Shown in pieces: positions 2,285 to 31,184 of a DNA stretch of 34,559 nt. The stretch's first letter is position 1. Each line of letters begins with the position of its first letter. This stretch comes from Magnetococcales bacterium (GTDB lineage: Bacteria; Pseudomonadota; Magnetococcia; Magnetococcales; Magnetaquicoccaceae), in NCBI GenBank assembly GCA_015231775.1, contig JADGAY010000022.1:1-34559 (forward strand), given 5' to 3'. Position numbers and translations under genes: made by a program. Below the pieces are notes generated by a model. It saw only the letters and a program-made list of their open reading frames with translations, was not told where the DNA came from and did no database searches.

Positions 2285-4165
2285 ATGCGCACCCTCACCC
2301 AATGGTTGCTCAACCACGGACGAATCGCCCTCCTGATAATCCTTCTGATCGCCGTGGGGGGTGGCATGGGGGCTGGCGATCTGTTTCGTTCGATGATGGA
2401 GCGGGACTTCCGACATCTGCTCGAGGGCAAGGCGCAGCGCGAGGCGATTGGTTTGGAACTTGAAACCATGCGCGGTCAGGCCATGGGCGTGACCTCCCTG
2501 TTGGGGCTCAACGAACCGATTCTCAAGGAGTTGGTGACCGGCAAACGCCCGCAAAACGATCCGGAGGGGCTGGCGCGCATGAAGGTGGCGCGGCAGATGC
2601 TCGGAGCCGACGGCGTGTACGTGATGAACAACGAGGGCAAGATCGTGGTCCACGAAAGCGATCACGAATCGAGCGTGGGCAAGAACATCAAGTTCCGCCC
2701 CTATTGGCAGCAAGCCATCGCCGGCAAGGAGAACGTCTATGCCGCGGTGGGTTCCAAAACCATGGAGCGCGGTCTCTACGTCGCGGATGCCATTTATAAC
2801 GGCACAACCCAGCAAGGATCGATCATCGGCGTGGTGGTGATCAAGCTGTTGGGGGATTATCTGGATCAAAAGATAGCCGTGCCGGGCACGCGGGGGTTGT
2901 TGCTCTCGCCGCAAGGGGTGGTGTTCGCCACCACCGAGAAGGATTGGCTCTTCCGGCTCAACGGCGATCCCACCCCAAGAGTTCTCGAGGAGATCGCCAA
3001 ACTCAACCAGTTCGGCAAGAGCTACGAAAAGGGCAATGTCCCCCACTCTCTGCCGTTCGATCTCTATCGGGAGGAAGTGGTCATCGCCTTGAGGCGTCAT
3101 GCCCGCGCGATGGCCCCGGTGCATTGGAACGATCCCGCCGGTGATTGGTCGTTGGTGCTGCTCGGCGATCTGGAGAGCGCCACGCCGTTGGAAGAGATGC
3201 TGCTGGTGATGATCCTGGTCGGCATGGGGGTGTTTTCCCTGCTGTTCATGGGATTGCGCGCCATGCGCGAGTCACGCGCCAAGCAGGAGGCGATGGCCAA
3301 GACCCACGAAGCCGCGGAAAAACTGGTGGTCGAGGCGCGTACCAAGAGCCGCCATGCCGAATTCGCCGTCACCTTGCAGCAGGCGCGGGATCTGGAGGGC
3401 CTGAGCCGCAGTTGGTTTGGCCAACTGAGTCAATTCTTTCCCGTGCATCAGGCCACCCTGTATGTCCTGGAGGGGGAAGGCGCGGAAGCTGTGTTGAGTC
3501 GGGTGGGTCAGTTTGGCGACGATCACGCCCCCGAGTCGATTCGTGCTGGCGAGGGGTGGTTGGGGCAGTGTGCCATCGATCATCAACCGATGGTCTTCAA
3601 TCTCCCCGAAGAGGGGTTCTGGCGGATCCACGCCGGGCTTGGTTCGGTGTTGCCGCGTTCGTTGTTGATTCTGCCGGTGCTGCGCGGCGAACGACCTTTG
3701 GGTGTGTTGGAACTCTCCTCCCTAAATGCCGCGTTCGGGGCCCATCTGCGTGAGATCCTGGAGATGACCCAGCAGTTGGCGGTCAATCTGGAGATCCTGT
3801 TGATCGCCCGGCGCACCGAAGAGACCCTGACGGGCGCACGGCGTTCCAAATCCTGGCTGTTGGAGCTTTTGGACAGCATTCCCGACGCGGTGGTGGTGAT
3901 CGACGACCAGGAGCGGGTGATGATGGCCAATCGACCGGCCCACCTCCATTTAGGGACGACTCAACCGGATGGCACGCCCGTCTTGTTGACGGATCTCATT
4001 CCGGAGGGGTGGGTGGGGGAGATGCACGGCCCCCAACCGGTGAAATTGCGTTCCGGCGAGGTGGTTCTGGCGCAGATCGAGCCTTTTTTTGTTCCCGAGC
4101 ATCCCGATTGGGGGCGGTGCATGGGGATGCTGGTCCGCGGCCTTTGGGATAACGACAACAAATGA
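2285..4165 (+). CDS. Membrane sensor protein with periplasmic Cache-like region, TM, GAF-like and C-terminal PAS-like region; no kinase/GGDEF/EAL output seen
   Basis: 626 aa ORF starting 3 nt after the kinase stop. N-terminal TM, Cache-like 'ADGVYVMNNEGKIVVHESDHESSVGKNIKFRPYWQQAIAGKENVYAAVG', second TM near residue 310, coiled linker, GAF-like then PAS-like 'LLDSIPDAVVVIDDQERVMMANRPAHLHLG'. Confidence 0.8.
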   Translation: MRTLTQWLLNHGRIALLIILLIAVGGGMGAGDLFRSMMERDFRHLLEGKAQREAIGLELETMRGQAMGVTSLLGLNEPILKELVTGKRPQNDPEGLARMKVARQMLGADGVYVMNNEGKIVVHESDHESSVGKNIKFRPYWQQAIAGKENVYAAVGSKTMERGLYVADAIYNGTTQQGSIIGVVVIKLLGDYLDQKIAVPGTRGLLLSPQGVVFATTEKDWLFRLNGDPTPRVLEEIAKLNQFGKSYEKGNVPHSLPFDLYREEVVIALRRHARAMAPVHWNDPAGDWSLVLLGDLESATPLEEMLLVMILVGMGVFSLLFMGLRAMRESRAKQEAMAKTHEAAEKLVVEARTKSRHAEFAVTLQQARDLEGLSRSWFGQLSQFFPVHQATLYVLEGEGAEAVLSRVGQFGDDHAPESIRAGEGWLGQCAIDHQPMVFNLPEEGFWRIHAGLGSVLPRSLLILPVLRGERPLGVLELSSLNAAFGAHLREILEMTQQLAVNLEILLIARRTEETLTGARRSKSWLLELLDSIPDAVVVIDDQERVMMANRPAHLHLGTTQPDGTPVLLTDLIPEGWVGEMHGPQPVKLRSGEVVLAQIEPFFVPEHPDWGRCMGMLVRGLWDNDNK

Positions 4166-5427
4166 AACGATTTCCAATAACATGGTGCGCGTTGTCGCTG
4201 CTGATCGGATCGATGGGATCCGGTTGGGCGGGTGAGATGGCACCGGTTGGGGCCTCGGTCGGCGAGTTGTTGGAGCTGGCCCGACGCATGAATCCGGAGT
4301 TGGCCGCCGCAGCCCTGGATCGGGATGCCGCCAAGGCACGGGTCGAGGGCTCGGACGGCTGGCCGGATCCGAAGTTGCAGATCACCTTTGACGAGATCTC
4401 CAAAAACGACGCCGGCTGGCCGAGTCGCACCGCCACCTACAAATACACCTTGATCCAGGAGATCCCCGGCTGGGGCAAACGCCAGGCAAAACGGGAGATC
4501 GCCGAGGCTGGTCAACGGGAGGCCGAGGGGCAGTTGCAAGAGCGGGTGGCCGAGGTGGTGATGCGCGTCAAGAGCGCCTATGCCGATTACCACCGGGTTC
4601 ATCTCTCCATGGATGCCACCTCCGAATGGATCCAGGTGATGCGCGCGTTGGTGGAGTTGGCGCGGGTGCGCTATGCCCAGGGGATGGGCGGACAGTCCGA
4701 GGCCACATCCGCCGAGGCGGAGCGTGGCGGGATGAGCGCGGAGCTTTTGCGCATGGAAAAGGAGCGCCATCGGATTCGCGCCCGGTTGAATGCGTTGGTG
4801 AACCGCTCGCCGGACGCTCCCCTGGTGGAACATCCCCAGTTGCGTCCCATCCCTTCGGATGAGGCGTTGCGGTTTGCCCCGCTGTTGGAACGGGCGATGG
4901 GTTCCAATCCGGGTTTGATGATGAGCCAGGCCCGTCTGGAGGGTGCCGAGGGGGAGGAGCGTCTGACCGGCAAGAGCTGGATTCCGGATCTGGAGTTGGG
5001 TTTCGGATTGGTGGACCGCAAGGACGAGGGGATGAAGGACGGATTCGAGGCCATGGTGAACCTCAATCTGCCGGTGGTGACCGGTTGGCGCCGCGCCGGT
5101 GAGCGGGAGGCCGAGGCGAAAAGGGGGGCGGCGCGGGCGCGTTGGAATGCCGCACGGTTGCAGCTCGAGTCCGCCTTGCGCGAGGCGCTGTTGAGTCTCG
5201 AAGAGGCCAGACTGGTCGAAAAGAGCGCCGACGAGGTGTTGTTGCCCCAGGCGCGTGTGGCGGTACGCTCCTCCTTGAAGGGGTATGAGACCGGCATCAA
5301 CGAGGCGAGCATGGTGTTGGATGCGGTGCAGCGGTTGAAAAAATTCCAGATCGAGCGGCTCAAGGCGCAATTCGATCAGCAGGTCCGTTTGGCCGAGATC
5401 GAACGGCTGGTGGGAGGAGAATTATAA
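4162..5427 (+). CDS. TolC-family outer membrane efflux protein (CusC/CzcC-like)
   Basis: ATGA overlap with the upstream ORF. Signal peptide and TolC-like coiled-coil repeats (LARRMNPELAAAALDRDAAKARVEG... YKYTLIQEIPGWGKR...). Followed directly by a membrane fusion protein. Confidence 0.88.
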   Translation: MKRFPITWCALSLLIGSMGSGWAGEMAPVGASVGELLELARRMNPELAAAALDRDAAKARVEGSDGWPDPKLQITFDEISKNDAGWPSRTATYKYTLIQEIPGWGKRQAKREIAEAGQREAEGQLQERVAEVVMRVKSAYADYHRVHLSMDATSEWIQVMRALVELARVRYAQGMGGQSEATSAEAERGGMSAELLRMEKERHRIRARLNALVNRSPDAPLVEHPQLRPIPSDEALRFAPLLERAMGSNPGLMMSQARLEGAEGEERLTGKSWIPDLELGFGLVDRKDEGMKDGFEAMVNLNLPVVTGWRRAGEREAEAKRGAARARWNAARLQLESALREALLSLEEARLVEKSADEVLLPQARVAVRSSLKGYETGINEASMVLDAVQRLKKFQIERLKAQFDQQVRLAEIERLVGGEL

Positions 5428-5430
5428 TTC

Positions 5431-6663
5431 ATGGCCAGATCTGGACGTGCGCGGTGCTTGGGGATGGCCTGGTGGCTGGTTCTGGTCGCCTTGCTGGCCC
5501 CGATCTGTCTGGTTGAAGCCGGGGAGACGGAGCGCAAAATCCTCTATTATCGCAATCCAATGGGGCAGCCGGACATCTCGCCCACCCCGAAAAAAGATTC
5601 GATGGGCATGGATTACATCCCGGTCTACGAGGATGAGATGGCCGGGGATGCCGGATCGGGGGCGGTGCGCATCAATCTGGACAAGGTGCAGAAGCTCGGG
5701 GTCAAGACCGAGATTGCCATGAAGCGTTCGTTGAGCCGGGAGATTCGCGCCGTGGGCGCGGTGAGCCTGGACGAGCGGCGTTTGCGGGTGGTCTCCTTGA
5801 AATACGAGGGGTGGATCGAAAAGCTCCATGCCGATGTCTCCGGCCAGAAGGTCAAGCGCGGTCAACCGCTCATGGAGGTCTATGCGCCGGTGTTGTTGCA
5901 GGCCCAACAGGAGTATCTGGCGGCGTTGCGTGCCAGCGAAGCCTTGAAGCAGGCGGATGCCGAGACCCGTCGCACCGCCGACGATCTGGCCGAGGGCGCC
6001 CTGACCCGGTTGGGCAACTGGGACATGCCGGCGGGGCGGATTCGGCAACTGGTGGAGCAGCGGGTTGCCAGCCGAACCGTGACCATCCCTTCCCCGGCCT
6101 CCGGGGTGGTGTTGGAGAAAACCGCGCTCCAGGGGATGCGTTTCATGCCCGGCGAGATGTTGTACCGCATCGCCGATCTGTCGGTGGTGTGGGTGTTGGC
6201 GGACGTGTTCGAGCAGGATCTCCCGTTCGTGCGTGAGGGGCAAGAAGCGGAGGTGGTGTTGAACGCCCTGCCAGGCAAGAGTTTTACCGGCAAGATCGCC
6301 TTCATTCAACCAATGCTCTCTCCGGAGACCCGCACCGCCAAGGTACGGGTGGAGTTGGCCAATCCGGACGGTCAGTTGCGTCCGGCGTTGCAGGCCACGG
6401 TGCGGTTGCAGGCCACGTTCGGGGAGGCGACGATTTCGGTGCCGGATTCGGCGTTGTTGGACAGTGGTGCGCGTCAGGTGGTGCTTGTTGAGCGTGGCGA
6501 GGGATTGTATGAGCCGCGTGCGGTGCGTGCCGGGGTCAAGGGTGGCGGGTATGTGGAGATTCTCGAGGGGTTGTTGGAGGCGGAGAAAGTGGTGGTGCGC
6601 GCCAACTTTCTCATCGATGCCGAGGCCAATCTGAGGGCGGCGTTGGGTCATTTTTCGCACTAA
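5431..6663 (+). CDS. RND efflux periplasmic adaptor subunit (CusB/CzcB-like) with an N-terminal heavy-metal-binding segment
   Basis: YYRNPMGQPDISPTPKKDSMGMDYIPVYEDE resembles the heavy-metal-binding domain of CusB-like proteins. Followed by MFP barrel/lipoyl regions (TVTIPSPASGVVLEKTALQGMRFMPGEMLYRIADLSVVWVLADVFEQDL). Confidence 0.9.
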   Translation: MARSGRARCLGMAWWLVLVALLAPICLVEAGETERKILYYRNPMGQPDISPTPKKDSMGMDYIPVYEDEMAGDAGSGAVRINLDKVQKLGVKTEIAMKRSLSREIRAVGAVSLDERRLRVVSLKYEGWIEKLHADVSGQKVKRGQPLMEVYAPVLLQAQQEYLAALRASEALKQADAETRRTADDLAEGALTRLGNWDMPAGRIRQLVEQRVASRTVTIPSPASGVVLEKTALQGMRFMPGEMLYRIADLSVVWVLADVFEQDLPFVREGQEAEVVLNALPGKSFTGKIAFIQPMLSPETRTAKVRVELANPDGQLRPALQATVRLQATFGEATISVPDSALLDSGARQVVLVERGEGLYEPRAVRAGVKGGGYVEILEGLLEAEKVVVRANFLIDAEANLRAALGHFSH

Positions 6664-6727
6664 GGGTGGAAAAGAATGGGCGAAACGGTTATCTCCAATA
6701 AGCCACCAGAAGAAAGGAATTGACAAT

Positions 6728-6883
6728 ATGTTAAATCATGTTGAAATTGGAAATGAAAATGATTCAAACAATCAACAGACAATAATATCACGCTGGGATG
6801 TTATTGAAAAGTCTACTGCCGTTATTGCGCAAGGGCAACTTCTGCAAACAGCCAAAGAATGGTTTGGCATTTTAATTTCATGA
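6728..6883 (+). CDS. Small 51-aa ORF (MLNHVEIGNENDSNNQQTIISRWDVIEKSTAVIAQGQLLQTAKEWFGILIS), unknown
   Basis: Continuous ORF with an AAAGGA-like SD and an ATGA overlap with the next ORF. AT-rich against the surroundings. Not in the supplied ORF list (short). Confidence 0.4.
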   Translation: MLNHVEIGNENDSNNQQTIISRWDVIEKSTAVIAQGQLLQTAKEWFGILIS

Positions 6884-7212
6884 CCCTCACCGATTCCGAC
6901 TTGACCGCCATGGTCTGCGGCATTGTTGCCGAAGTGCAGCCGGAGCTGGTCATTCTGTTCGGCTCCCATGCCCGAGGTGACGCCGGGTCCAATGCCGACG
7001 TGGATCTGCTGGTCATCGAGGCCGAACCCTTTACAACGTCCCGTTCGCGTTTCCAGGAGATCGCCCGTCTGGAACGGGCCATGGGGAGCATTCCCGTCGC
7101 GACCGATATTCTGGTCTACTCTCTGGACGAGGTGCAACTTTTGAAATCCTCGCGCAACCACGTCGTTGCCCGCGCCTTACGGGAAGGGAAGGTGCTCCAT
7201 GCCCGATCTTGA
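6880..7212 (+). CDS. MNT-type minimal nucleotidyltransferase domain protein
   Basis: LFGSHARGDAGSNADVDLLVIE matches the GSxxxGxxxxxxDxDLLV nucleotidyltransferase motif. The start at 6880 (internal ATG of ORF 6859..7212) overlaps the preceding stop. Confidence 0.8.
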   Translation: MTLTDSDLTAMVCGIVAEVQPELVILFGSHARGDAGSNADVDLLVIEAEPFTTSRSRFQEIARLERAMGSIPVATDILVYSLDEVQLLKSSRNHVVARALREGKVLHARS

Positions 7213-7237
7213 AACCGTCAGGCGCATGCTGGAATAG
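7199..7237 (+). pseudogene. Truncated reading frame starting inside the MNT gene end (MPDLETVRRMLE*), possible remnant of a HEPN-type partner
   Basis: ATG at 7199 overlaps the MNT stop (7210-7212). It terminates at TAG 7235-7237 after 12 codons, where MNT partners usually encode about 110-140 aa. Confidence 0.3.
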
Positions 7238-7329
7238 GATCAAGCAAACGGATACGCGATGCTCGACAAATTTTCGTTTGTGCGGGCATCATGTCCAAAT
7301 CGCTCAAGAAAAATGTCAGCGTCACATAA

Positions 7330-7400
7330 GAACAGTCGTAGGGCGCCGCCCCACTCCCCTCCGGGGACCTTCGGCCCCCCGTCCCACGTAAACGTTATCA
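7330..7400 (-). repeat. REP-like palindromic element, copy 1 (minus orientation)
   Basis: Reverse complement reads GATAACGTTTACGTGGGACGGGGGGCCGAAGGTCCCCGGAGGGG..., sharing the AACGTTTAC core and CCGAAGGTCCCCGG hairpin with 10824-10862. Confidence 0.6.
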
Positions 7401-7423
7401 CCCTTGCCACCCCCGAGGCACGC

Positions 7424-10400
7424 ATGATCGCCGCACTCATCCGCTGGTCTGGCCGCAACCTCCTCCTGGTCCTGCTCGCCACCCTGTTCGTGACCACCGC
7501 CGGTATCGTCGCCCTCTCCCGCACCCCGCTCGACGCCATCCCCGACCTCTCGGACGTGCAGGTGATCCTTTATACCGACTACCCCGGCCAGGCCCCGCAG
7601 GTGGTCGAAGATCAGGTCACCTACCCCCTGACCACCGCCATGCTCTCGGTGCCACGCTCCAAACTGGTGCGCGGTTTTTCGTTTTTTGGCACCTCGTTTG
7701 TCTACGTCATCTTCGAAGACGGCACGGATATCTACTGGGCCCGCAGCCGGGTGCTGGAATATCTCAACTTCGCGGCACGCCGCCTGCCCGCCGGTATCAC
7801 CCCCACCCTGGGACCGGACGCCACCGGCGTGGGCTGGGTCTATCAGTACGTGGTGCTGGCCAAGGAGAAATCCCTGGCCGAACTGCGTACCCTGCAAGAT
7901 TGGTATCTGCGCTACCACCTGGCCAAGGCCGAGGGGGTCGCCGAGGTGGCCAGCGTCGGCGGCTACGTGCAACAGTACCAGGTGATCGTGGACCCGCAAC
8001 TGCTGCAAGGGTTCAAGATCCCCCTCTCGACCGTCACCCGCGCCATCGCCATGAGCAACCGCGACGTGGGCGGACGGGTGGTGGAGATGGCGGAAACCGA
8101 ATACATCGTGCGCGGCAAGGGGTATCTGCGCGGCATCGAGGATATCGAGAAGATCGTGTTGAAGGAGGAGCGGGGCACGCCGATCCGCCTGCGTGACGTG
8201 GCACGGGTGGAACTCGGACCCGACGAACGACGGGGACTGGCGGAACTCAACGGCGAGGGCGAGGCGGTGAGCGGCATCGTCATGCAACGGTTTGGACAAA
8301 ATGCTCTGGCGGTAATCCGCAACGCCAAGGCCAAAATCGCCGAAATGGCCGGCAGTCTCGGCGAGGATGTACGCATCGAGGCGGTCTACGACCGTTCGGA
8401 GTTGATTCTAAGGGCGGTGGAGACCCTCAAAACCACCCTGATCGAAGAGAGCCTGATCGTGGCGGCGGTGTGCGTGATCTTTCTGTTGCACATTCCGAGC
8501 GCGCTGGTGGCGATTCTCATGCTGCCGGTGGGGGTGCTGATCGCCGTTCTGCTCATGAACGCATTGGGCATGACCTCCAACATCATGAGCCTGGGAGGGA
8601 TCGCCATCGCCGTGGGGGCCATGGTGGATGCCGCCATCGTGATGATCGAAAATGCCCACAAACACCTGGAACGGGCCCCACCCGATACCCCGCGCGCCGA
8701 GGTGCTGATGAACGCCGCGGTCGAAGTCGGACCCGCGCTCTTCTTCAGCCTGCTGGTGATCACGGTGTCGTTTCTGCCGGTCTTCACCTTGGAGGATCAG
8801 GAGGGACGGCTGTTCAAGCCCCTCGCCTACACCAAAACCTTTGCCATGGCCGGCGCGGCGTTTCTCTCCGTGACCCTGGTGCCGGTGCTGATGCTGCTGT
8901 TCGTGCGCGGCAAAATCATGCCGGAGCGGCAAAACCCCTTGAACCGCCTGATGATCTGGCTCTACCGCCCGATCATCCGCCTGGTGCTCCGTTTCAAGCT
9001 CACCTTCATCCTCATGGCCGTGGTCACCCTGGTCGCCACCGTGGAGCCGGCCAAACGGATCGGCGCGGAGTTCATGCCGGCCTTGAACGAAGGGTCGATC
9101 CTCTACATGCCCACCACCCTGCCCGGCCTGTCGATGACCAAGGCCGAAGAGCTGATCCAGACCCAGGACAAGATCATCAAGGGGTTCCCGGAGGTCGCCA
9201 CGGTGCTCGGCAAGGCGGGACGCGCCGCCACGGCCACGGATCCGGCCCCCACCGAGATGTTCGAAACCGTGATCACCTTGAAACCGGAGTCCGAGTGGCG
9301 ACCGGGCATGACCATGGACAAGCTGATCACCGAAATGGACGAAGCGTTGCGCATGCCCGGCATCAGCAACGCCTGGACCCAACCGTTGAAGGCACGCATC
9401 GACATGCTCTCCACCGGCATCCGCACCCCGATCGGCATCAAGGTGTTCGGCAAGAGCCTGGAGGAGCTTGAACCCCTCGCCCTGCAGATCGAAGCGGTGG
9501 TGCGGGAGGTTCCGGGCACCACCAGCGCCTATGCCGAACGGGTGATGGGCGGGTATTATCTCACCATCGATCCGGATCGTGACGCCATCTCCCGTTATGG
9601 GCTGACCATCGGCGATCTGCAAGAGACCATCCTTACCGCCTTGGGCGGCGAGGCGGTCACCACCACGGTGGAGGGACGGGAGCGGTTCACGGTCAACGTG
9701 CGCTATCCGCGGGATTTCCGTTCCGATCCCGAGTCCATCGCCCAGCGGGTGTTGTTGCGGGCGGAAAACGGCGCCTATGTGCCGTTGGGACAGTTGGCCG
9801 CCGTGCGTCTGGAGAAGGGACCGGCCACCATCCGCACCGAAAACGCCTTGCCCGCGGTCTACATCTACATCGACATCCGCGATCGGGATATTGGCGGCTT
9901 TGTGGCCGATGCCCAGAAGGCGGTACGGGAGGCGGTGCAGCTCCCGTCGGGCACCTTCTTGCAGTGGAGCGGCCAGTTCGAGTACATGGAGCGGGCCAAG
10001 GAGCGGTTGCGCCTCGTGGTCCCCTTGACCATCTTCATCATTTTCATTTTGTTGTTCATCAACTTCGGCAAGATCGCCGAGACGTTGATCGTGATGCTGT
10101 CGTTGCCGTTTTCGCTGGTGGGCGGGATCTGGCTGATGGATGGGTTGGGATTCAACTGGAGTGTCGCCGTGGCGGTGGGGTTCATTGCCCTGGCCGGGGT
10201 GGCGGCGGAGACCGGGGTGGTGATGTTGATCTATCTGGAGCACGCCTGGGAGGCCATCCGCGCCGAGCGCGCCCAGGAGGGGGTGCCGGTGACCCGGGCG
10301 GATCTTCATGCCGCGATCATGGAGGGCGCGGTGGAACGGGTGCGTCCGAAGATGATGACCGTGGTGGCGATCATGGCCGGTCTGTTGCCGATCTTGTGGA

Positions 10401-10543
10401 GCACCGGAACCGGTTCCGAGGTGATGCGCCGCATTGCCGCGCCGATGGTGGGCGGCATGGTCTCCTCCACCATTCTGACGTTGGTGGTGATTCCGGCGAT
10501 CTATGCCTTGGTCAAAGGTATTCGCCTGGCCGGGAAAAAATGA
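7424..10543 (+). CDS. CusA/CzcA-family heavy-metal efflux RND permease
   Basis: Classic HME-RND sequence ([46 protein letters not shown]...; [23 protein letters not shown]). Start set to the internal ATG at 7424 ([16 protein letters not shown]); the longer ORF N-terminus reads through the repeat region. Confidence 0.95.
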   Translation: [1039 protein letters not shown]

Positions 10544-10790
10544 AATCCATCACCACCTCATAGGCATCCTCGGTGGCGGTGGTGGTACACTGGGAGCAAT
10601 CCTTGATGCCCGACTCCAGCCAGATGGGGGTGCCGGGGCAGTTCTCGAAGGTGTAGAGCGGGCAGAAGCAGAACAGGCAGTTGAGATGCTTGCCTTCGGG
10701 CAGGTCGTGGCAGGGGAAGTACTCGCAGGAGCGGTTTTCGAAATAGCGGTGGCTGTTGGGGATGGGATTGGGGGTGGTGGGCGTGGTCAT
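10512..10790 (-). CDS. Small cysteine-rich metal-binding-type protein (cysteine-rich small domain family)
   Basis: HRYFENRSCEYFPCHDLPEGKHLNCLFCFCPLYTFENCPG...GIKDCSQCT: Cys arrangement as in the conserved cysteine-rich small domain. Convergent with cusA, 32-bp 3' overlap. Confidence 0.8.
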   Translation of the reverse strand: MTTPTTPNPIPNSHRYFENRSCEYFPCHDLPEGKHLNCLFCFCPLYTFENCPGTPIWLESGIKDCSQCTTTATEDAYEVVMDFIFSRPGEYL

Positions 10791-11421: not shown

Positions 11422-12777
11422 TTACATATTCTCCACCCACTTGCCGACTTTCAGTTCCGGCTTCGCGGTCGCCTCGGTGCCACCATCCGCAACACCCAGA
11501 TAGGCATTCACCAGTTTGAACCGCTTGCCGTTGACCAGCACCCCATAAACTTCGCTGGTATCGAACGTCCCCAGATTGAAGTGCAGCTTGCCTTCCGACA
11601 GTTTGCAATCCGGGTCCACGGTTCCGTTGCACTGGATGGACGTGGAGGTGTATGTCCAGTTACCGTTGTAATAGTGTCGGCAGTAGATGGTTTTGTTCGT
11701 CGAATTCAACTCGATCTGGCTCGTGCCATCGCTGTTGTCCCCGCAGTAGATTTGACGGGTTCGATGGTAGCCTTCGTCCACGCCGACCACCAGATTGAAC
11801 TTGCTGTCCGAATAGACCGGCAGGTTGAAGGTGGCATGGAACCACACCGGCTGCCCGTTGGTGCTCGGCAAGGTCAAATTCTTGTTGTTCTTCGTCTGGA
11901 TCGCCATGTTGGCGCTCCCACCGCTGGAGGTGGAGCCAAAGGTCACCATCCCGTTGGCTTGGGAGTCGATCATGTATTTCCGATCCCAGTCGTTGTAGTT
12001 CTCTCCATTGAACAAGTTGCCGGTGTTCTCTGGACCCGACTCGCAGGTCACCACCTGGGTCAGGGTGCGCGGTTTTTCACTGGTGGTGGTGTCCACAGCG
12101 GTCACCATCCAGTAGTTGGTCGAATCCTCCTCCGCGCTGTTCTCCCCACCCGTCTGACACTTGGCATCCCAGTTGTTGTGATGGCGATGCAAAGGGCCGT
12201 GACACTGCTTGCGATGCCACTGCACCCTGCGCCAGTGTTCCCGTTTGTCCGCGTGCAGCCAGTGGTGATGACGGTATTTCGGACCCAAGTGCTTGTCCTC
12301 ATTATTCCCCCTCAGGAACCAATACTTGAGGAAGTATTTCCCCTTGTATTTGTGCCAGTAGGGGTGATGCGTCCCTTCCGGATCGTCTTTCTCGTTCTCG
12401 GCCTGGGTCACATCCTCGTCCGTGGGCATCATGTCATTGTCGAAGCAGGTGCCATCCATGGGACAGAAGGTCAACTTGAAACTTCTGCCGTCCCCCAGGG
12501 ATTGCGACACCTCGGTGGAGCCATCCTCTTTTTCTGGCACGGCCCCGGTCACCTGACTGGGGTCGCACTCCGCATCCTTGAACTGCTTGAGACCGATCTG
12601 CAAGGCAGACTCGGCCACGTTGAACGACTTGTTGCCACTGGTGTACTCCGTGGCGACGTTGGTACCGCTCACCTGCATCTTGGACAGGGAAGCGCCAACG
12701 GCGGCCACGCCCGCCAACATCACCATGGCAATGACAACAAGCGCACCCCGTTGTCCCGCGTGCGCGTTCATAATCAA
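11422..12777 (-). CDS. PilX/MshP-like pilus assembly protein with a large C-terminal domain and a His/Trp/Lys-rich insert
   Basis: N-terminus QRGALVVIAMVMLAGVAAVGASLSKMQVSGTNVATEYTSGNKSFNVAESALQIGL is typical of PilX/MshP proteins. Last gene of the pilin cluster. TTG start at 12777 (ATG at 12771 is possible). Confidence 0.75.
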   Translation of the reverse strand: MIMNAHAGQRGALVVIAMVMLAGVAAVGASLSKMQVSGTNVATEYTSGNKSFNVAESALQIGLKQFKDAECDPSQVTGAVPEKEDGSTEVSQSLGDGRSFKLTFCPMDGTCFDNDMMPTDEDVTQAENEKDDPEGTHHPYWHKYKGKYFLKYWFLRGNNEDKHLGPKYRHHHWLHADKREHWRRVQWHRKQCHGPLHRHHNNWDAKCQTGGENSAEEDSTNYWMVTAVDTTTSEKPRTLTQVVTCESGPENTGNLFNGENYNDWDRKYMIDSQANGMVTFGSTSSGGSANMAIQTKNNKNLTLPSTNGQPVWFHATFNLPVYSDSKFNLVVGVDEGYHRTRQIYCGDNSDGTSQIELNSTNKTIYCRHYYNGNWTYTSTSIQCNGTVDPDCKLSEGKLHFNLGTFDTSEVYGVLVNGKRFKLVNAYLGVADGGTEATAKPELKVGKWVENM

Positions 12778-13328
12778 GTACTCCTTACATAGACAGAGGT
12801 TCTGAAAGGTAAGGTGATCGATGTGCCATCCGGCATGGAGGCACGCATCGTGAACGAAACTGTCACGAGGCCAGGCTTGAGCGGAGGGGTCGGATCCCCT
12901 GCACCGTCACACTGGGTCCACGTGAAACGCAGACTGTCTGCCTGAACGTTCGAGGCAAGCAGCCAATTGACGTTATCGTTGTTGAAAGTCATGTAGATGG
13001 CATTGGTGGTCGTTCCAGCCTGATGGAACAGGACAATGCGTCCATTGGTGTCGGTCAATTGCAGCGTGCGATCGCCGTTTGGACGACTGATTGTGGAACA
13101 CATGGTGTTGCGCAACTCCTTGCGGATGCGCTCCATCACGAGTCGTCCGCTGCCGGACAGGGGCGCGATCACTTGCGCGGTCATGTAGGCCTTGAAGCTG
13201 TTGCCCATGGCAACCGCGCTCGTGCCCGCCACGATGCCGACGATCAGAATCGTGATGACCATTTCGATCAGCGAGAAACCCGAGGCGTTCCTGACTGACC
13301 CACTTAACCCGCCGTGATGGTTCGACAT
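12774..13328 (-). CDS. PilW/MshO-like minor pilin (prepilin N-methylation motif)
   Basis: NASG|FSLIEMVITILIVGIVAGTSAVAM prepilin peptidase motif. SD AGGAG upstream of ATG 13328. Confidence 0.82.
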   Translation of the reverse strand: MSNHHGGLSGSVRNASGFSLIEMVITILIVGIVAGTSAVAMGNSFKAYMTAQVIAPLSGSGRLVMERIRKELRNTMCSTISRPNGDRTLQLTDTNGRIVLFHQAGTTTNAIYMTFNNDNVNWLLASNVQADSLRFTWTQCDGAGDPTPPLKPGLVTVSFTMRASMPDGTSITLPFRTSVYVRST

Positions 13329-13409
13329 CCCTGGAACTCCTGTCAACAAGGAACGCCCACGCGGGCCGTTCCCAGGGTCGGGGTGAGGTTGGAACCCTCA
13401 CCATGTCAA

Positions 13410-13883
13410 TCAGTTCAGCAGATCCGAATTGATCAATTGCTCCCGGAACAGAACCTCGGAACTCCCGCTTCGCAACACCTTCACGGTAATGCACTTGAAG
13501 GGTTCGTTGTTGTAACTCTGCCCGGTGCATGGACCCGGCACCAATCCTGGAATCATCCCCTCGATCACCACGACCCGATCGAATTGTAACCTTCCACCGA
13601 TATCAATACCATACTGGGATGGAAAGTTGGCATCCACGATATTGCCAAAGCCGAGCCCCTTGTTGTAGACCGACTTCAGGGTTTCGACCATCTCCAATCC
13701 CAGGTACTCCGCCTGCATGCCCTCATCCATGACGTGCAGGTTGGAGAGCACGTTGTTGTAGAGCGGGATGATCCCGGCCATGGAGATGCCGATGACCACG
13801 ATGAAGAAGATCATCTCGATCAAGGTGAACCCGGCTGCTCCACGTTGGCCACGCATGTCGTGTCCACGCCCTCCCGTCATCAT
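13410..13883 (-). CDS. MshD-like minor pilin (prepilin N-methylation motif)
   Basis: RGAAG|FTLIEMIFFIVVIGISMAGIIPLYNNVL. ATG 13883 overlaps the upstream stop (ATGA). Confidence 0.8.
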   Translation of the reverse strand: MMTGGRGHDMRGQRGAAGFTLIEMIFFIVVIGISMAGIIPLYNNVLSNLHVMDEGMQAEYLGLEMVETLKSVYNKGLGFGNIVDANFPSQYGIDIGGRLQFDRVVVIEGMIPGLVPGPCTGQSYNNEPFKCITVKVLRSGSSEVLFREQLINSDLLN

Positions 13884-14413
13884 AACCGTTGCGCCAAACC
13901 GGTATAACCGATGATGCGAATGGTCAGCGCTTCCGTTCCCGAGGTGAGTTGCAACTCCTGATTGGTCGTCATCTCCGCATTGCCGTTCACCGGCGCGCCC
14001 CTGCCATTGAACGTGAACGCAAACGTCGGGAAGGTCACACGTTCCAATTGCGTGGGCTGGGGATCCACCGCCACGCCCGAGGCATCCACGATCCGGTAGG
14101 AGTCCGATCCTACATTTTCGATCCTGTAGTTTCCATCCTTGCTCATGGCCAGGGCCTGAGCGCGGCGGATATCGTTCACCAATTGATCGACCTTGACAGG
14201 AAAGCTCAAATCCCCCTGCCACCTCGCCCCGACATAGACCGCCAGAATCCCCATGATGACCATCACCATGATCAACTCGATCAGGGTGACCCCGCTCTGC
14301 CGATCCATGCCGTGGAACACCGGTTTGGTGCGCCACGGCATGGCGGGAATTTCCCCATCCGGCAAACCGCCGACGGGCGTGAATCCAGACGTTTGAGAAC
14401 GGTTCCCGGACAT
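13880..14413 (-). CDS. MshC/GspH-like minor pilin with an unusually long leader
   Basis: DRQSG|VTLIELIMVMVIMGILAVYVGARW. ATG 14413 preceded by AAGGGAG; an alternative short-leader start lies at 14308. Confidence 0.78.
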   Translation of the reverse strand: MSGNRSQTSGFTPVGGLPDGEIPAMPWRTKPVFHGMDRQSGVTLIELIMVMVIMGILAVYVGARWQGDLSFPVKVDQLVNDIRRAQALAMSKDGNYRIENVGSDSYRIVDASGVAVDPQPTQLERVTFPTFAFTFNGRGAPVNGNAEMTTNQELQLTSGTEALTIRIIGYTGLAQRL

Positions 14414-14472
14414 CTGTGCATCTCCCTTCGAACCGAGCTTGCGCCAACCCTTCACGCCCGTCGATCAGACCG

Positions 14473-14919
14473 TTATTGGATGGCCAAAACTGCTGTTGCC
14501 CGTCCGGTGGCGGTCTCGGGAGAGACGGTGATGGTGTAGGTTTTGCCATCCTTGCCGGTGTGGGTGAGTTTCATGCTGGCCAGGGTCCAACCCGTCGGAA
14601 TGCCGCCATCGAGGGACGTGGTCAGCGTGGCATCGGTGGTGATGGCCGTGGAACCCGACTTGCCGGCCTTGACCGCCGCGAAGTTGGTGGCGGTCGCGGA
14701 GTTGACCGCCGCCAGCACGCCATTGGCCGCCGCCGCCTCGGCTTCGGAACTCAAGTCGGTGAACTTGGGCACGGCCACCGCCGCCAGAATGCCCAGAATG
14801 ACGATCACCATGATCAACTCGATCAGGGTGAAACCCGCCTGACGGATCCGATGTTGACGGACCTCCTGGGCCTGTTGTTGCTCTTGATGTTCGTCGATGT
14901 GGTGTTGGATGGTGTTCAT
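14473..14919 (-). CDS. MshA-like type IV pilin (paralogue 2)
   Basis: RQAG|FTLIELIMVIVILGILAAVAVPKFTDLSSEAEAAAANGVLAAVNSATATNFAAVKAG. SD AAAGGAGC upstream of ATG 14919. Confidence 0.85.
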   Translation of the reverse strand: MNTIQHHIDEHQEQQQAQEVRQHRIRQAGFTLIELIMVIVILGILAAVAVPKFTDLSSEAEAAAANGVLAAVNSATATNFAAVKAGKSGSTAITTDATLTTSLDGGIPTGWTLASMKLTHTGKDGKTYTITVSPETATGRATAVLAIQ

Positions 14920-15074
14920 GGTGCGTGCTCCTTTTTTGTGCTGAGGTTCGGCCTGGGTCGCAACCCGAGAGCCCAATGAGGTTTCCCGCCTGAAATCCAC
15001 TCCGCCGCAGCGGAATCGTTGGGTTTTTCATGCAAGAAACCGGATAAGAACAGGATACACCTCTTGCGAGATTT

Positions 15075-15479
15075 TCACCAGTTTTTTGAGAGCATTGCCT
15101 TGCTGGTTTCAGATTCTGTCCGTGCCACGGATATGGCATAGAGAACGCCTGATTTCCCCAAGAAACTCATGGCGTTGCCAGAATCGTTCCAACCCAGTGG
15201 ACGGCTCTCCATGGCCTGGATCAGGGTGGCCCCATCGACAATCGGCGCGGCACCCATCCGACCCGCGCGCATCGCCGCAAAATTGATGCCCGTGGCCGAT
15301 TGCGCCGCGGCATACACCCCATCCGCGGAGGCCTTCTCGGCCTCCTGGTGTAGATCGACCCATTCCGGCGCGATGATGGCCGCGAGGATGGCGATAACAA
15401 CCAGAACAATGATCATCTCGATCAGGGTAAAGCCGCCGTGATGACGATCCGACCCCTGGAGATTCGAGACCTTGTGCAT
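15075..15479 (-). CDS. MshA-like type IV pilin (paralogue 1)
   Basis: HHGG|FTLIEMIIVLVVIAILAAIIAPEWVDLHQEAEKASADGVYAAAQSATGINFAAMRAG; collinear with the neighbouring pilin. Confidence 0.83.
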   Translation of the reverse strand: MHKVSNLQGSDRHHGGFTLIEMIIVLVVIAILAAIIAPEWVDLHQEAEKASADGVYAAAQSATGINFAAMRAGRMGAAPIVDGATLIQAMESRPLGWNDSGNAMSFLGKSGVLYAISVARTESETSKAMLSKNW

Positions 15480-16823: not shown

Positions 16824-18047
16824 TCAGTGTCGCGCCTTGTTCATGGCCGCGGAACTCATGTCCCACATCGGCATGAAGATGCCCAATGCCAACACCAGCA
16901 CCATGGCGCCGATCACGGTCAACAGAATCGGCTCGATGGCGGAACTCAACCCCTTCACCTCGTACTCCACCTCGCGTTCGTAAAAATCGGCCACTTCGGT
17001 CATCATCTCCCCCACCCCGCCGGTCTCCTCGCCCACGGAGACCATCTGCAACACCAGGGGCGTGAACAGACCGCTGTTGTAGGAGGCCTGGGTCAGGCTC
17101 TCGCCCCGTTCGATTCCATCGCGCATGCCGGCGATTCGTTGCGCCATGAAGGCATTGTCCACCGCGTCCTCGACCGCGGCCAGGATCTGGATCACCGGCA
17201 ATCCGGCGCGGGAGCCCATCGAAAACGCCCGTGCGTAACGGGCCAGGGTGGCGCGGTTGATGATCGAGCCGACGATCGGGAGTTTCATCCGCTGCCCATC
17301 CCACCACAATCGTCCGGCATTGGTTTTGATGTAGGTCAGAAACCCATAGACCGTGGAAGCGAGTCCCACGAAGATCCACAGGGCATACTGTTGCACGAAT
17401 GCCGAGGTGGCGAGCAGGATCCGGGTGGCCAACGGCAGATCCGCGCCCATCTTGGAGAACATGCTGGCGAAATTGGGAATCACGTAATAGTTGACCGCGA
17501 ACATGGCCAGAATGATCGCCGAGACCACGAAGGTAGGATAACGCAACGCGGACTTGATCATGCGCCGGGTGTTCTTGTCCACCTCCATGTATTGATAAAG
17601 CTGGAGAAAGGACTCCTCCATGCGTCCGGTCTCCTCGCCCATGCGGATGATGCGGGTGAAGAGCTTGTCGAAGATCTTCGGGTGATCGCTCATGGCCACG
17701 GATAGCTCCTTGCCGGATTGCAACTCCTCGATGATCTTGACCATGGCCTGTTTGAGTTTTTTGTTGTGGGTGCTCTCCACCAATCCCTGAAAGGAGCGCA
17801 CCAGCGACACTCCGGATTTGGCCAGGGTGTACATCTGCCGGGCAAAGAGGATCTTGTCATCCTCGGTGGGCCACTCCACCATGATTTCAAAGTCAAGCGA
17901 CGCGCTCGAGGTTTGGACCTCATGAATCTCCAACGGTTCGATGCGGCGGTTGAACAACTGCTCGATCACCGCTTCGTGGTTGGCGGCGTTGATCACCCCA
18001 TCCACGGATTTGCCTTCGATGCGACCGACGAAGCGAAACTCGGGCAT
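16824..18047 (-). CDS. mshG: Type II secretion / type IV pilus platform protein (GspF/PilC/MshG-like)
   Basis: MPEFRFVGRIEGKSVDGVINAANHEAVIEQL..., GspF repeats (FARQMYTLAKSGVSLVRSFQGL; SMGSRAGLPVIQIL; VGEETGGVGEMMTEVADFYEREVEYEV). Confidence 0.92.
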   Translation of the reverse strand: MPEFRFVGRIEGKSVDGVINAANHEAVIEQLFNRRIEPLEIHEVQTSSASLDFEIMVEWPTEDDKILFARQMYTLAKSGVSLVRSFQGLVESTHNKKLKQAMVKIIEELQSGKELSVAMSDHPKIFDKLFTRIIRMGEETGRMEESFLQLYQYMEVDKNTRRMIKSALRYPTFVVSAIILAMFAVNYYVIPNFASMFSKMGADLPLATRILLATSAFVQQYALWIFVGLASTVYGFLTYIKTNAGRLWWDGQRMKLPIVGSIINRATLARYARAFSMGSRAGLPVIQILAAVEDAVDNAFMAQRIAGMRDGIERGESLTQASYNSGLFTPLVLQMVSVGEETGGVGEMMTEVADFYEREVEYEVKGLSSAIEPILLTVIGAMVLVLALGIFMPMWDMSSAAMNKARH

Positions 18048-18051
18048 GTGG

Positions 18052-20010
18052 TCACTGCTCCTTGTCGGCAATCGCCGGGATGCCGTCCACACCCGTCACT
18101 CCGACCGACTCCGGCAGGTAGGTCTCCTCCTCCTCCTCGACATCGCTGACCAGTCGCATCACCTCCTCCAGGGTGGTGATGCCGCGCAACACGTACTCCA
18201 GGGCCACCTGGTGCAGGGGTTTAAAACCGGATTGGAGGTCGGCCAGACGCATGAAAGCGGTGGTATCGTTGGCGCGCAACGCCTCGGCCAGATTGCCGCG
18301 CATCTCCAGCAACTCCACCACCGCGATCCGGCCCCGATACCCGCTATGATTGCACTGGGGACATCCCCGCCCGCGACTCAACCGCACCCCTCCGGCCCGT
18401 TCGCCCATCAATCCGCGCAGCAGGATCTGCTCCCCGACATCCGGTTCCACGCTCTCCAAGCAGTCCTGGCAGATGCGTCGCACCAGCCGTTGCGCCACGA
18501 TGCATTTCAACGCCGAGGCAACGGCATACCCCTCCACGCCCATCTCGACCAGGCGAATCGCGGTGGCGACCGCGCTGTTGGTGTGCAAGGTGGAGAGAAC
18601 CAGGTGACCGGTCAAGGCGGCGCGAATGGCGATTTCGGCGGTCTCCTGATCGCGCATTTCGCCCACGAGCACGATATCCGGATCCTGACGCAGCACGGTG
18701 CGCAGCACCTTGGCGAAGGTCAGGCCGATGCGGGTGCGCACCTGCACCTGATTGATGCGCGGCAAACGGTATTCAACCGGATCCTCGACGGTGATGATCT
18801 TTTTGCCAGGGGAGTTCAAGGCGTTCAAGGCGCCGTACAGGGTGGTGGTCTTGCCGCTTCCGGTGGGGCCGGTGACCAGGATCAGGCCGTGGGGTCGATT
18901 CAGGAGAAAACGGAACCGATCGAGCATTTTCGGTTCCATGCCGACCATTTCCAGATTGAGATTGTCCGCGGATTGATCCAGAAGACGCATCACCACCGAC
19001 TCACCATCCTGGATCGGCAGGGTGGAGAGACGCACATCGACGCTCTTGCCCTTGACCGAGATGTTGAAGCGTCCATCCTGGGGCAGGCGCTTTTCGGCGA
19101 TCTCCAGACCGGCCATCAGCTTGAGCTTGGAGACCAGGGCCGGGGCGATGCGCTTTTCGTTGACGATCTGCTCGTGCAACACCCCGTCGATGCGCTGGCG
19201 AATGCGCAACACCTCGGAGTCCGGCTCGATGTGGATGTCCGAGGCGTTCATGCGCATCGCATCCTCGAAGAGCGATTGCAGAATCTTGACCACCGGGGCA
19301 TCGACCGCCATCTCGGCCTGGACGATCCCCTCGAGATCGAACTCGCTCCGTCCGACCTCCTCCTCCAGGGCGGCGGCCTGCTCGTGGATTTTCCCCTCGC
19401 CGCGATAGAGCAGGTCCAGGGCACGCAGCAGTTGGCTTTCGCTCACCAGGGCCAGATGGGGGGATTGCCCCAACAGACGGGTCAATTCGTCGAAGACGAA
19501 GATGTCGGTCGGGTCGGCCATGCCCACCCGGATCCCCTGGCCATCCCGAGCCAGCACCACGGCGCGGAAACGACGCGCGGTGGCCTCCGGAAGCAGTTGG
19601 ACCACCTCGGGCACAAAGGGGAATTTTTTCAGATCTATGAACGGGATGTGGAGCTGGGTGGCCAGGAACTCGGTGAACTGGGTTTCACTCAGGATTCCCA
19701 GTTGGGCGAGGCTCTGGCCGAGTTTTTTTCCGGACCGCTTCTGTTCGGCCAGGGCGGCCTGGAGCTGCTCGGCGCTGATGACCTTGGCCTCGACGAGCTT
19801 GTCGCCGATGCGCAGCTTCTGGCGTTGCCGATTCAAGAAATTCTGCAACGCCTGCTCGGTCACGAAGCCGAGATGGACCAACGCCTCGCCCAACTTGGCC
19901 CCGGTCTTCTCCTGATGGGCCAGGGAGAGCCGCAACTGCTCGGCGGAGATCAGTCCGGATTCGACCAGAACATCGCCGAGGCGGGGTTTGTTGGGCGGAG
20001 GCAAGGCCAT
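18052..20010 (-). CDS. mshE: Type II secretion/T4P ATPase (GspE/PilB/MshE-like) with tandem MshEN domains
   Basis: Walker A GPTGSGKTTTLYGAL, VEDPVEYRLPRINQVQV, GEMRDQETAEIAIRAALTGHLVLSTLHTN, Cys motif CQDC...CPQC. N-terminus carries repeated RLGxxLxxxG... motifs. Confidence 0.95.
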   Translation of the reverse strand: MALPPPNKPRLGDVLVESGLISAEQLRLSLAHQEKTGAKLGEALVHLGFVTEQALQNFLNRQRQKLRIGDKLVEAKVISAEQLQAALAEQKRSGKKLGQSLAQLGILSETQFTEFLATQLHIPFIDLKKFPFVPEVVQLLPEATARRFRAVVLARDGQGIRVGMADPTDIFVFDELTRLLGQSPHLALVSESQLLRALDLLYRGEGKIHEQAAALEEEVGRSEFDLEGIVQAEMAVDAPVVKILQSLFEDAMRMNASDIHIEPDSEVLRIRQRIDGVLHEQIVNEKRIAPALVSKLKLMAGLEIAEKRLPQDGRFNISVKGKSVDVRLSTLPIQDGESVVMRLLDQSADNLNLEMVGMEPKMLDRFRFLLNRPHGLILVTGPTGSGKTTTLYGALNALNSPGKKIITVEDPVEYRLPRINQVQVRTRIGLTFAKVLRTVLRQDPDIVLVGEMRDQETAEIAIRAALTGHLVLSTLHTNSAVATAIRLVEMGVEGYAVASALKCIVAQRLVRRICQDCLESVEPDVGEQILLRGLMGERAGGVRLSRGRGCPQCNHSGYRGRIAVVELLEMRGNLAEALRANDTTAFMRLADLQSGFKPLHQVALEYVLRGITTLEEVMRLVSDVEEEEETYLPESVGVTGVDGIPAIADKEQ

Positions 20011-22445: not shown

Positions 22446-24518
22446 TCACGGTTCCAGACTCCTCATCCGCTGCGAAGACCCATTCATCTCCCAAGGCTGC
22501 CAACTGCGTGCATCGCGGTGCATGACCCCGATTCGCTCCACCGCGCGGTTGCGCTCCTTTTGCCAGTCATGCCGCGCATCCACCACGAGCGGACGGATCA
22601 GAATCACCATCTCGCTCTTGTACCAACTCTCGCGCGCCTTCTGGAACAAAGGTCCAACTCCCGGCAAATCCCCAAGCAGCGGCAGTTTATCCACATCGTA
22701 ACGCTGCTCTTTTTTCAACAACCCGCCAATCACCGCCAATTCGCCATTCTCCACCCGGATCACGCTGTCCGTCTCACGGGTGCTGCTCCAGGCCATGGGG
22801 ATCGAATGGTATTTGTCCTTGATCTTGAAATTCTTCTCTTTGTCCTGCACGCTGCGCACCATGGGGTGCACATGCAGGGTCACCATGTCGTTCTCGCCGA
22901 CCTGGGGGGTCACATCCAGGGCAATGCCGTTGAACATCGACGTAAAGACCGGCGTCGGATCCACATAGGAGGCCGATTCGCCGATTCCAGACGGGGACTC
23001 CATGCCGGTGATGAAATAGCCATCCTCGCCCACCTTGATCACCGCCTTCTGGTTGTTGATCGTGGCGATGCGCGGGCTCGACAACACCTGCACCTTGCCC
23101 TGTTTTTCCAGGAGTCCCAGGAAGGTGGTGAAGTCATGCATCCGGAAGGCCAGACTGAACGGCGTCCCGGCCCCGGCCTGGGAACCGACGAACCCCTTGG
23201 TGAAGAGCGGATTGAGATCCAACACCTTCGGATCGTCGCTCGTGCCGGAGATCACCTGCTGGTTCATGCTGCTGACAAAGGTACGGGCATTGTTCGGTTC
23301 CGAGGCCAAAGGGGCGAAACGGTCACTGCCCAACCCCTTGTTGATCGCCAGCCAGTCGATGCCGAACTGAAAGCCGTCGTTCAACTCCACCTCGATGATC
23401 TTGGCCTCCAGAATCACCTGCCTTTGGCTGCGGGTGCGCAGATCTTCCAAAAAGAGTTCAATCTCGGCCAACTCCTTGGGAAAGGCCCGAACCGTCACCA
23501 GACCGGCCTGACGGTTGAGGATCACGCTCTTGAGATCCTGACCGGCATTGATCGGCATGGAACTGGTCTGCGGCGCCCGCTTCTCCCCCTTGTCCGCCCC
23601 CTCCTGGCTGGCCGCCGGGGTCGTCACCGTGACCGAGTCCCGCTTGCGCATGATCGTCTGAGAGACCTCCCCCTTGTTGTTGATGGTCTCGTTGATCGAG
23701 TCGATCGCCAGATCCATCTTCAAGATCGCATGGATGGTGCTCTCCAGATCCTGCCAGAAATCCGACCGGTAATCGGTCTCCACCGAAGTCCCGGTATTCT
23801 GGGTTTCACTGGATTGGTTGGTGATCTTGCGATTTTCGCTGTCACGATTCGTTTGCGTCGCCGTGGACTCCTTGCCTGTCCCAGAACTGACTTGCGTATC
23901 CGTCCGACCGCCGCGCTTGACCGACAGAAAATCGACCCGATAGGTCTTGGTCACCAGTCGCCACGGAAAGATCTTGAAGCCGCGAATCGTTCCAGAGCGA
24001 TCCTCGGAAAACGAATGACAGTCGTACTGATAGATCTCGCAGGCCACCTCGACCACCTCGTCCACCGTGACCCGTTTCAATTCCAGGCTGATCGTTCCCT
24101 TGACATCCGGGTGGACCACCATGTTCAAACCTGGCGAGTTCTGCACCAGACTCATGAAAAAATCCCGCGCCTCCACCCCGCTCACGTTGACATCCAGGCG
24201 CGGCATGGGCAGTTCGGTGGGCGTGGCGGCGGATTTGGCGTGCGCGGAGCCATCCTCCTCCAGGAGTTCCTTGAACACCATGAAGGGAACCTCCTCCCGT
24301 CCGCCCCGTTCCGTGCCGCCGCCATCCTTGCGCGCCGCCCCATCCACCTCTTCGAGCATGCTGTCGATGGCGCTCTGGAACTCCTTTTTCGCCGCCTCCT
24401 CGTGTCCCGGAGCGGCGTCATCGATCGCGGTTGTCTGGGGGGTACAGGCCACGCACAACCATCCCAGGCACCCCAGGATCAAGCCAACCATGGGCGAACG
24501 CCAACCGGTCACCGGCAT
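22446..24518 (-). CDS. mshL: Pilus/type II secretion secretin (MshL/GspD-like lipoprotein)
   Basis: Lipobox-like LGWLCVAC. Secretin core ([25 protein letters not shown]..., [29 protein letters not shown]..., [17 protein letters not shown]...[29 protein letters not shown]). Start uncertain (24518 or 24491). Confidence 0.92.
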
Positions 24519-24929
24519 CCCCCTCGCGGGGCATGGGCCCGCGACGCGCTGGATATCGCGACCTCTCGCCAATTAATTGACGACACGGCACGCTGTTTAA
24601 GCCACCGATATGACCTCTTAAAGTCGAATCTCACGGGCTCGAGTCATCCGGGTTGTAATCTTGATAACCAACACACCCATTCATACCCAGGTTATGGATA
24701 AAGAACGCAATCCGGTTTATTGCAAGAATGATTCCAACTGACGACACATGGAAACCTAACGTCCGTCGATCATGACAGAGCAGGAATGGTGACCGGACTG
24801 GATTGATATTGATTGGAATTTCGGAAGGAAATGAAGCGGAGAGCGGATCCCACAGGTGCGTGGGGTTGGGAAACGCACGGGATGAAGCAAGCCTGAAGAG
24901 CGCTCCGTCCGACCGTCAACTTCGGACTG

Positions 24930-25112: not shown

Positions 25113-26195
25113 TTATTCGATCAAGGCCACCGACTTGACCTGCACCCAGACCGGCTTGCCGGGGGTCAGTTCCAGATGGGCCGCTGAACGGCGGGTGATG
25201 CGCGCCACCAGGGGGGTCTCCCCCACCAGGACGCGGGCCAAGGTGTTGGCCGGGTGTTGATCCTCGGCCAGGGCGTTCACCACGCCGGGCAGGATGTTCT
25301 GGATGCTGGTGTGGGGGTGATGTTCGAGGGCCAGGCTCACATCCCGCGCCAGAACGCGCACCCGTGCCCGCTGGCCGAGCGCCAAGCCGTGATCCCGAAT
25401 CCAGAGCGTTCCCCCTGGAAAATCGGCCCGACAGAGTTGCCAGGCTTCGTCACGGGCGCCGATCACGGTTTCGAGCACCACGCCGCTCTCCTCGCCCAGG
25501 CGCACCGGCGGATCCAGTCGCGCCAAGGTGGCCCCCAACGGCCCCTCGGCCACCACGCGACCCGCCTCCAGCACCACCAGATGGTCGGCCAGACGGGCCA
25601 CCTCGTCGGGTGCGTGGCTGACATAGACCACCGGCATGGTCAACTCCCGGTGCAACCGCTCCAGAAACGGCAGGATCTCCTGTTTGCGCGCCACATCCAG
25701 AGCGGCCAGGGGCTCATCGAGCAGCAACAGCTCCGGCGAGACCGCCAGGGCACGGGCAATGGCCACCCGCTGCCGTTCCCCCCCGGATAAGTTGGTGACG
25801 CGCCGTTCCAACAAGCCACCGATGCCCAACAGCTCGATGGCTCGATCCAACGGCACGCGTCTTGAAGCCTCTGGCACCCGTTTCAGGCCATAGATCAGAT
25901 TGTCCTGGACATTCAAGTGGGAAAACAGGGCGGGATCCTGAAACACCAAGCCGATCGGACGGCGATGGGTTGGCCAGAAGATCCCCTGAGCGTCATCCTG
26001 CCAGATGTTTCCGCGCACCGCGACGCGACCAGCCGGCGGACGCTCCAGACCGGCGAGAATGCGCAACAGGGTGCTCTTCCCTGATCCGGATGGGCCAAAG
26101 AGGGCGGTCACCCCCTGATCGGGCCAGGTCAGATCGACCTCGAGGGTGAAATCGCGTCGCGCCAGGCGACAGACAACCCGGATCGTGTCGTTCAT
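25113..26195 (-). CDS. modC: Molybdate ABC transporter ATP-binding protein
   Basis: [56 protein letters not shown]-terminal TOBE/Mop-like region. Start MNDTIRV at 26195, ATGA overlap with modB. Confidence 0.92.
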
Positions 26196-27621: not shown

Positions 27622-27689
27622 CACGCCCACTCCCGGATTGCCAAACCCGTTCCACTCAAGGATTAAAATCTTCACGAGACCAAGCCTGT

Positions 27690-30981: not shown

Positions 30982-31184
30982 GACGCCACCCAAGCCCATG
31001 AGCACGGGCGACAGGATTGATCGCGCTGATTATTCCTTATCTTACGCGATCCCCCTTTTTTCGTTGGCCGCACACGAACGAATCCGCTAAACTGCAAGAT
31101 GATTAAACCGATCTTCAAAGCCGAGAAGCCTGGTTCCCCTCGGTGGTTTACGCGCATCTGATCGATACCTGGAGCATGAGACTC

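Follow-up and report, generated by a model that had tools for sequence, protein, structure and literature searches.

A histidine- and tryptophan-rich insert in a predicted tip pilin of an MSHA-type pilus locus in Magnetococcales

The pilus locus and its surroundings

The window examined here, 34,559 nucleotides of a Magnetococcales genome (3.8 Mb, 89% complete), carries an MSHA-type gene set in one operon on the minus strand, with an MshEN-type ATPase, a platform protein, a secretin and prepilins. The assembly genes encode an MshL-type secretin (22449–24572; PF00263 and PF07655), an MshE-type assembly ATPase (18055–20010; PF00437 and the MshEN domain PF05157) and an MshG-type platform protein (16827–18092; PF00482), and a gene for a PEGA/SPOR/TPR protein also belongs to the operon, upstream and on the same strand. 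The prepilin genes that follow all match PF07963. They comprise a second MshA/MshB-like pilin (15081–15479), an MshA-like pilin that is also GspG-like (14476–14925), the MshC- and MshD-position prepilins (13883–14455 and 13413–13880), which are placed by synteny as well, and an MshO-like prepilin (12777–13349). The tandem of MshA-like pilins (14476–15479, minus strand) is doubled in relatives too. The MshO-like gene lies directly upstream, in a position kept in relatives, of the gene that concerns us here, an MshP-position gene at 11422–12771 (minus strand, stop codon included). This is the last gene of the operon, after the MshC-, MshD- and MshO-position prepilins, in an order that is conserved in relatives, and no mshQ is found downstream of it in the window.

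A Cus-type operon (4162–10540) adjoins the pilus operon region, and a preliminary description of this DNA had thought its presence suggestive. The operon is indeed nearby, yet it adjoins the prepilin gene in none of the five relatives checked, where its position is taken by ClpA- and RecN-type genes, by a histidine kinase gene or by nothing recognised, and we no longer draw the link. Between the Cus-type and pilus operons there is a gene for a small Cys-rich PF04071 ‘zf-like’ protein (10515–10790, minus strand). Elsewhere in the window, at 25116–28073 (minus strand), ModA/ModC-like transport genes adjoin a ParE-type toxin gene; the true ModC start is probably an internal ATG. High-GC antisense frames look His-rich in this window. 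Long His-rich or Val/Gly-rich open reading frames run antisense to the RecN-type, ClpA-type and MshP genes (30840–31514 and 31514–34030, both minus strand, and 11581–12792, plus strand), and the His-rich frames outside the prepilin gene (30840–31514, the upstream part of 25116–26849 and parts of 31514–34030) are dismissed as antisense or wrongly started.

Architecture of the MshP-position prepilin

The coding part of the prepilin gene (11425–12771) starts with an ATG at 12771, with a Shine-Dalgarno-like AAGGAG nine bases upstream of it (12781–12786, minus strand), and the reading frame ends at 11422. All residue numbers given here count from this ATG, which yields 449 residues; the listed TTG start gives 451. 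The protein begins with MNAHAGQRG followed by ALVVIAMVMLAGVAAV, that is, a short leader with a terminal Gly and then a hydrophobic helix, an arrangement conserved in 10/10 orthologues. From the conserved QRG/A[LF][VI] (slash, cleavage site) we infer that the nine-residue leader (12745–12771, minus strand) is removed to leave a mature N-terminus ALVVIAMV. Mature position 5 is Ile here; among the ten orthologues it is always Ile, Leu or Met, and Glu is found in none of them. The orthologues from the nine other genomes of the genus are 50–74% identical to the window copy. The assignment to the K type (PilX/MshP/GspK) is made on position and architecture, with profile scores that fall below curated cut-offs: the GspK profile (NF037980) gives 12.9 bits where its cut-off demands 130, and the PilX_N profile (PF14341) matches one of six orthologues, sub-threshold, with an E-value of 0.037.

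In Vibrio cholerae the structural operon of the MSHA pilus extends from mshB to mshQ (PMC4624765). The window protein resembles MshP in being the last prepilin after MshA-, MshC-, MshD- and MshO-type prepilins, with MshE-, MshG- and MshL-type assembly genes upstream. It differs from MshP, a small pilin, in its length of 449 residues, which include an insert and a C-terminal module, and in that mshQ does not follow. Gene order suggests that MshP is the equivalent of PilX and GspK, which hold the K position of the H-I-J-K minor pilin scheme (PMC7248040) and are tip subunits without Glu5 (PMC7541494, PMC9934059).

AlphaFold2 models of the pilin head place its strands at residues 86–93, 96–104, 218–227 and 236–245, with strand pLDDT mostly 52–84 in the head-only model; strands 1 and 2 (residues 86–104) correspond to 12460–12516 and strands 3 and 4 (residues 218–244) to 12040–12120, both on the minus strand. 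These positions imply that an acidic linker and the His/Trp-rich insert fall between head strands 2 and 3. Homologues from other Magnetococcales families align around the insert, which is largely or wholly gapped both in a 344-residue protein that has the same C-terminal module (E 2e-14) and in one of 288 residues (E 3.5e-9). It is also missing from four homologues of 164–181 residues and, in the sister genus, from a 161-residue protein whose gene follows that of MshO. Alignments and models alike thus indicate that the His-rich segment is an insertion into the pilin β-sheet, and the preliminary description was right to consider it unusual for relatives of this protein, since homologues outside the genus are without it. 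Each of the four short homologues that are free of the insert has four Cys and no more, matching C69, C103, C109 and C243, so that the insert adds exactly one pair, C190 and C205. As an extra Cys pair in an extracellular protein, these two residues probably form a disulphide closing the His-rich loop CHGPxHxHHNNxDxxC.

What had been described as an Asn/Thr/Gly-rich domain following the insert can be refined to a predicted β-sandwich module with four invariant Cys (residues 246–449; 11425–12036, minus strand), modelled by AlphaFold2 with pLDDT mostly 60–77 for residues 301–430. Galectins and glucanases are among its best Foldseek matches, none with E <0.001, and Foldseek searches with both AlphaFold2 models gave no significant match; we describe the module as a predicted lectin-like β-sandwich. 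A homologous module is present in the Magnetococcales homologue L027.

Domains inserted in the pilin sheet have been described for few subunits only, such as GspK and ComZ. GspK has an α-helical domain inserted between strands 3 and 4 of the sheet and is placed at the tip (PMC6561018). Like GspK, the window protein holds the K position, lacks Glu5 and has a domain set into its sheet, but there is no significant sequence match, the insert sequence is different and a further module is present at the C-terminus. In ComZ of Thermus thermophilus, the proposed tip receptor of a DNA-uptake pilus, a β-solenoid of ∼380 residues separates the last two strands of the sheet (PMC6561018); the likeness lies in the domain inserted in the sheet, the difference in the large β-solenoid and the DNA-uptake pilus. 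PilC of Streptococcus sanguinis is a modular pilin with a grafted ConA-like lectin module (PMC9934059) and resembles the window protein as a pilin followed by a β-sandwich module and a likely tip adhesin. PilC, however, differs in having Glu5 and an Ig-like module, and no insert in its head has been reported, whereas the lectin-like fold of the window protein is a non-significant model match. What is new is a genus-specific inserted module in a known type of protein, the modular or insert-bearing tip pilin. Such a module also suggests that the MshP position is a hotspot for grafting different modules among Magnetococcales lineages.

Taken together, the gene position, the absence of Glu5, the insert and the grafted module point to a tip subunit, and we regard placement at the pilus tip and a modular build as well-supported inferences. 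The PilX/MshP-like identity given in the preliminary description agrees with the operon position and the missing Glu5, and its suggestion of a tip or minor component gains further from the bulk of both the insert and the C-terminal module.

Composition, conservation and distribution of the insert

The insert (residues 134–206; 12154–12372, minus strand) contains 14 His, 6 Trp, 16 Lys/Arg and 5 Asp/Glu in 73 residues. Its nucleotide coordinates and His/Trp/Lys-rich composition had been reported exactly; the residue range 136–208 denotes the same segment counted from the upstream TTG. When the protein's own residues were shuffled 20,000 times, no 73-residue stretch reached 14 His, the maximum being 12. 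In the pilus, Cus and kinase proteins nearby the count does not exceed 4 His per 73 residues, with His at ∼2% of residues, and the few higher values in that comparison come from antisense or wrongly started frames. Orthologues in the genus have 11–18 His per 73 residues, against 0–3 in correctly started positional homologues elsewhere; in the PilX_N background some starts are mis-trimmed, and the two top values (7 and 6 His) probably reflect upstream sequence read out of frame. The net charge of the insert, leaving His uncounted, is +6 to +13 among the orthologues. The acidic stretch noted earlier is present as described, at residues 110–133 (12373–12444, minus strand), directly after FCPMDGTC and with 10 Asp/Glu and one Lys, and an acidic stretch immediately precedes the basic insert in 10/10 orthologues.

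The earlier description of the insert can be refined. Strong conservation is confined to a core at residues 165–206 (12154–12279, minus strand), YRxHHxxHxDKxEHWRxxxxHxKxCHGPxHxHHNNxDxxC, in which 15 of 42 columns are invariant in the ten orthologues, including six His, two Cys and one Asp. The insert has invariant Trp, Tyr and Arg residues, and Arg167 and Lys188 are its only invariant basic residues other than His. The N-terminal half (134–164) varies in length and keeps few His, W139 and W151 being its sole invariant residues, and across the genus the insert has ∼66–73 residues. For close pairs, pN/pS is 0.12–0.27 in the core, compared with 0.17–0.49 in the C-terminal module, and by this measure the insert is under purifying selection in the genus.

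Counting the window's own, 10 of the 11 genomes in the genus encode the prepilin with its insert; the eleventh (77% complete) has only distant MshO matches and seems to be without the locus. The insert motif has no match at E <0.01 in other genera, either among 48 Magnetococcales genomes or in a 399-genome sample of the phylum, and one marginal match of 20 residues (E 0.096) occurs in another family of Magnetococcales. Comparison with Pfam and PDB sequences brought no convincing family and no known metal-binding family, the best PDB match being a catalase (E 0.09), and we reject a known domain for the insert. Our literature search, made in one collection of papers, found no histidine-rich minor pilin, nothing relevant on metal-binding pilins and nothing specific to the pili of Magnetococcales.

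The genus is probably magnetotactic, as judged from relatives of the magnetosome actin MamK in all ten of its other genomes; for the window's own genome, in whose assembly (89% complete) no MamK relative was found, magnetotaxis is no more than possible. Full-length matches are 47–54% identical to the query, a Magnetospirillum-type MamK sequence. Genomes G001, G002, G003, G006 and G010 have three such full-length relatives each.

Possible roles of the insert at the pilus tip

Could the insert be an artefact, arising from a frameshift, an assembly error or a gene called on the wrong strand? Its odd composition, the low structural confidence and the long open antisense frame at 11581–12792 (plus strand) might invite this view, but we consider it scarcely credible. 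The preliminary description had itself raised a frameshift or artefact, and absence from close homologues, against its own reading; both the frame and the insert are present in 10 genomes. In every one of these the frame stays open and the sequence is similar, with low pN/pS in the core, which argues against a frameshift; motif, frame and synteny are common to independent genomes at 50–74% identity, which argues against an artefact. The antisense frame is interrupted in 6/10 orthologues and is rejected as a gene.

The reading that we tentatively prefer, while giving it somewhat less than an even chance, is that the protein is a K-type minor pilin of an MSHA-type pilus whose tip insert coordinates a transition metal and aids contact with a surface or polyanion. 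On this reading a basic, His/Trp-rich and mainly helical segment, with the acidic linker preceding it, was inserted between pilin strands 2 and 3. The CHGPxHxHHNNxDxxC loop and His169, His170, His179 and His186 would together supply ligands for at least one transition-metal ion (Zn, Cu, Ni or Fe), and the bound metal would keep the insert in shape. A metal-dependent patch at the tip could then contact a surface or polyanion beside the C-terminal lectin-like module. Metal coordination is favoured because the invariant residues of the insert are mostly potential ligands (His, Cys, Asp), with only two Lys/Arg, and the predicted metal binding, which the preliminary description had proposed alongside mineral and polyanion binding, is plausible. 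The AlphaFold2 model, which has helices in the insert (e.g. 176–191) at pLDDT mostly <55 from an alignment of six sequences, speaks neither for nor against a metal site. Against the reading count the lack of a match to any known metal-binding family and the sub-threshold PilX and GspK profile scores. In Shewanella, MSHA disruptions reduce rare-earth biosorption under some conditions, with MshP not involved (PMC10520059), which is no more than a hint, from another organism, that MSHA pili can play a part in metal binding. A more specific proposal, for a genus whose other sequenced members carry mamK, is a new kind of metal-dependent tip receptor: the metal-loaded domain would hold on to iron minerals or to surfaces coated with metal, linking attachment with the acquisition of iron. 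This seems to us quite unlikely.

His-rich basic segments can also bind polyanions or surfaces without metal. The strong positive charge leads us to rank such direct binding second, ahead of a purely structural role: the basic, aromatic, His-rich insert would bind DNA, anionic polysaccharide or mineral by charge and stacking, a possibility that we hold to be on the unlikely side. ComZ, likewise a pilin with a domain set into its sheet, binds DNA (PMC6561018). The invariant Trp, Tyr and Arg, the net positive charge and the sharp local contrast with the acidic linker are in keeping with such binding, but the invariant basic residues number only two, compared with six His and two Cys. MSHA pili are, moreover, not known as DNA-uptake pili. 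Somewhat more doubtful is that the insert simply fills a cavity at the tip and blocks the addition of further subunits, its composition having no ligand role; on this view the acidic linker and the basic core would also bind to each other, or else to MshO. The insert of GspK has been proposed to confine it to the tip and shield a cavity (PMC7248040), and the constant placing of the acidic stretch directly before the basic insert would suit such pairing. A mere cap, however, has no need of six invariant His, and homologues without the insert, encoded at the corresponding place in the operon, can be presumed to cap their pili nonetheless. Very improbable is a heme or electron-transfer module: CHGP resembles the end of CXXCHG, paired His are available, and the C-terminal module has a match to PF07550, a Shr-like hemoglobin-interacting domain, but this is sub-threshold and confined to one of six orthologues, and there is no CXXCH, position 187 being Arg, Met or Leu in 10/10 orthologues. 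We reject heme c for these reasons.

Tip pilins determine what a pilus sticks to. Set into the pilin sheet and restricted to one genus, the conserved His/Trp/Cys module is a compact candidate, open to experiment, for an adhesive or sensing tip that depends on metal.

Finally, three MshP-like proteins of other Magnetococcales families (L017, L021 and L024) contain Cys/His modules of the form CHxPG...HLGHGDxxGxC, twice per protein. Those of L017 and L021, the two that were scanned, match no Pfam family. Their outline, CH.P...H..H..D..C, recalls that of the insert core, the likeness being one of outline only.
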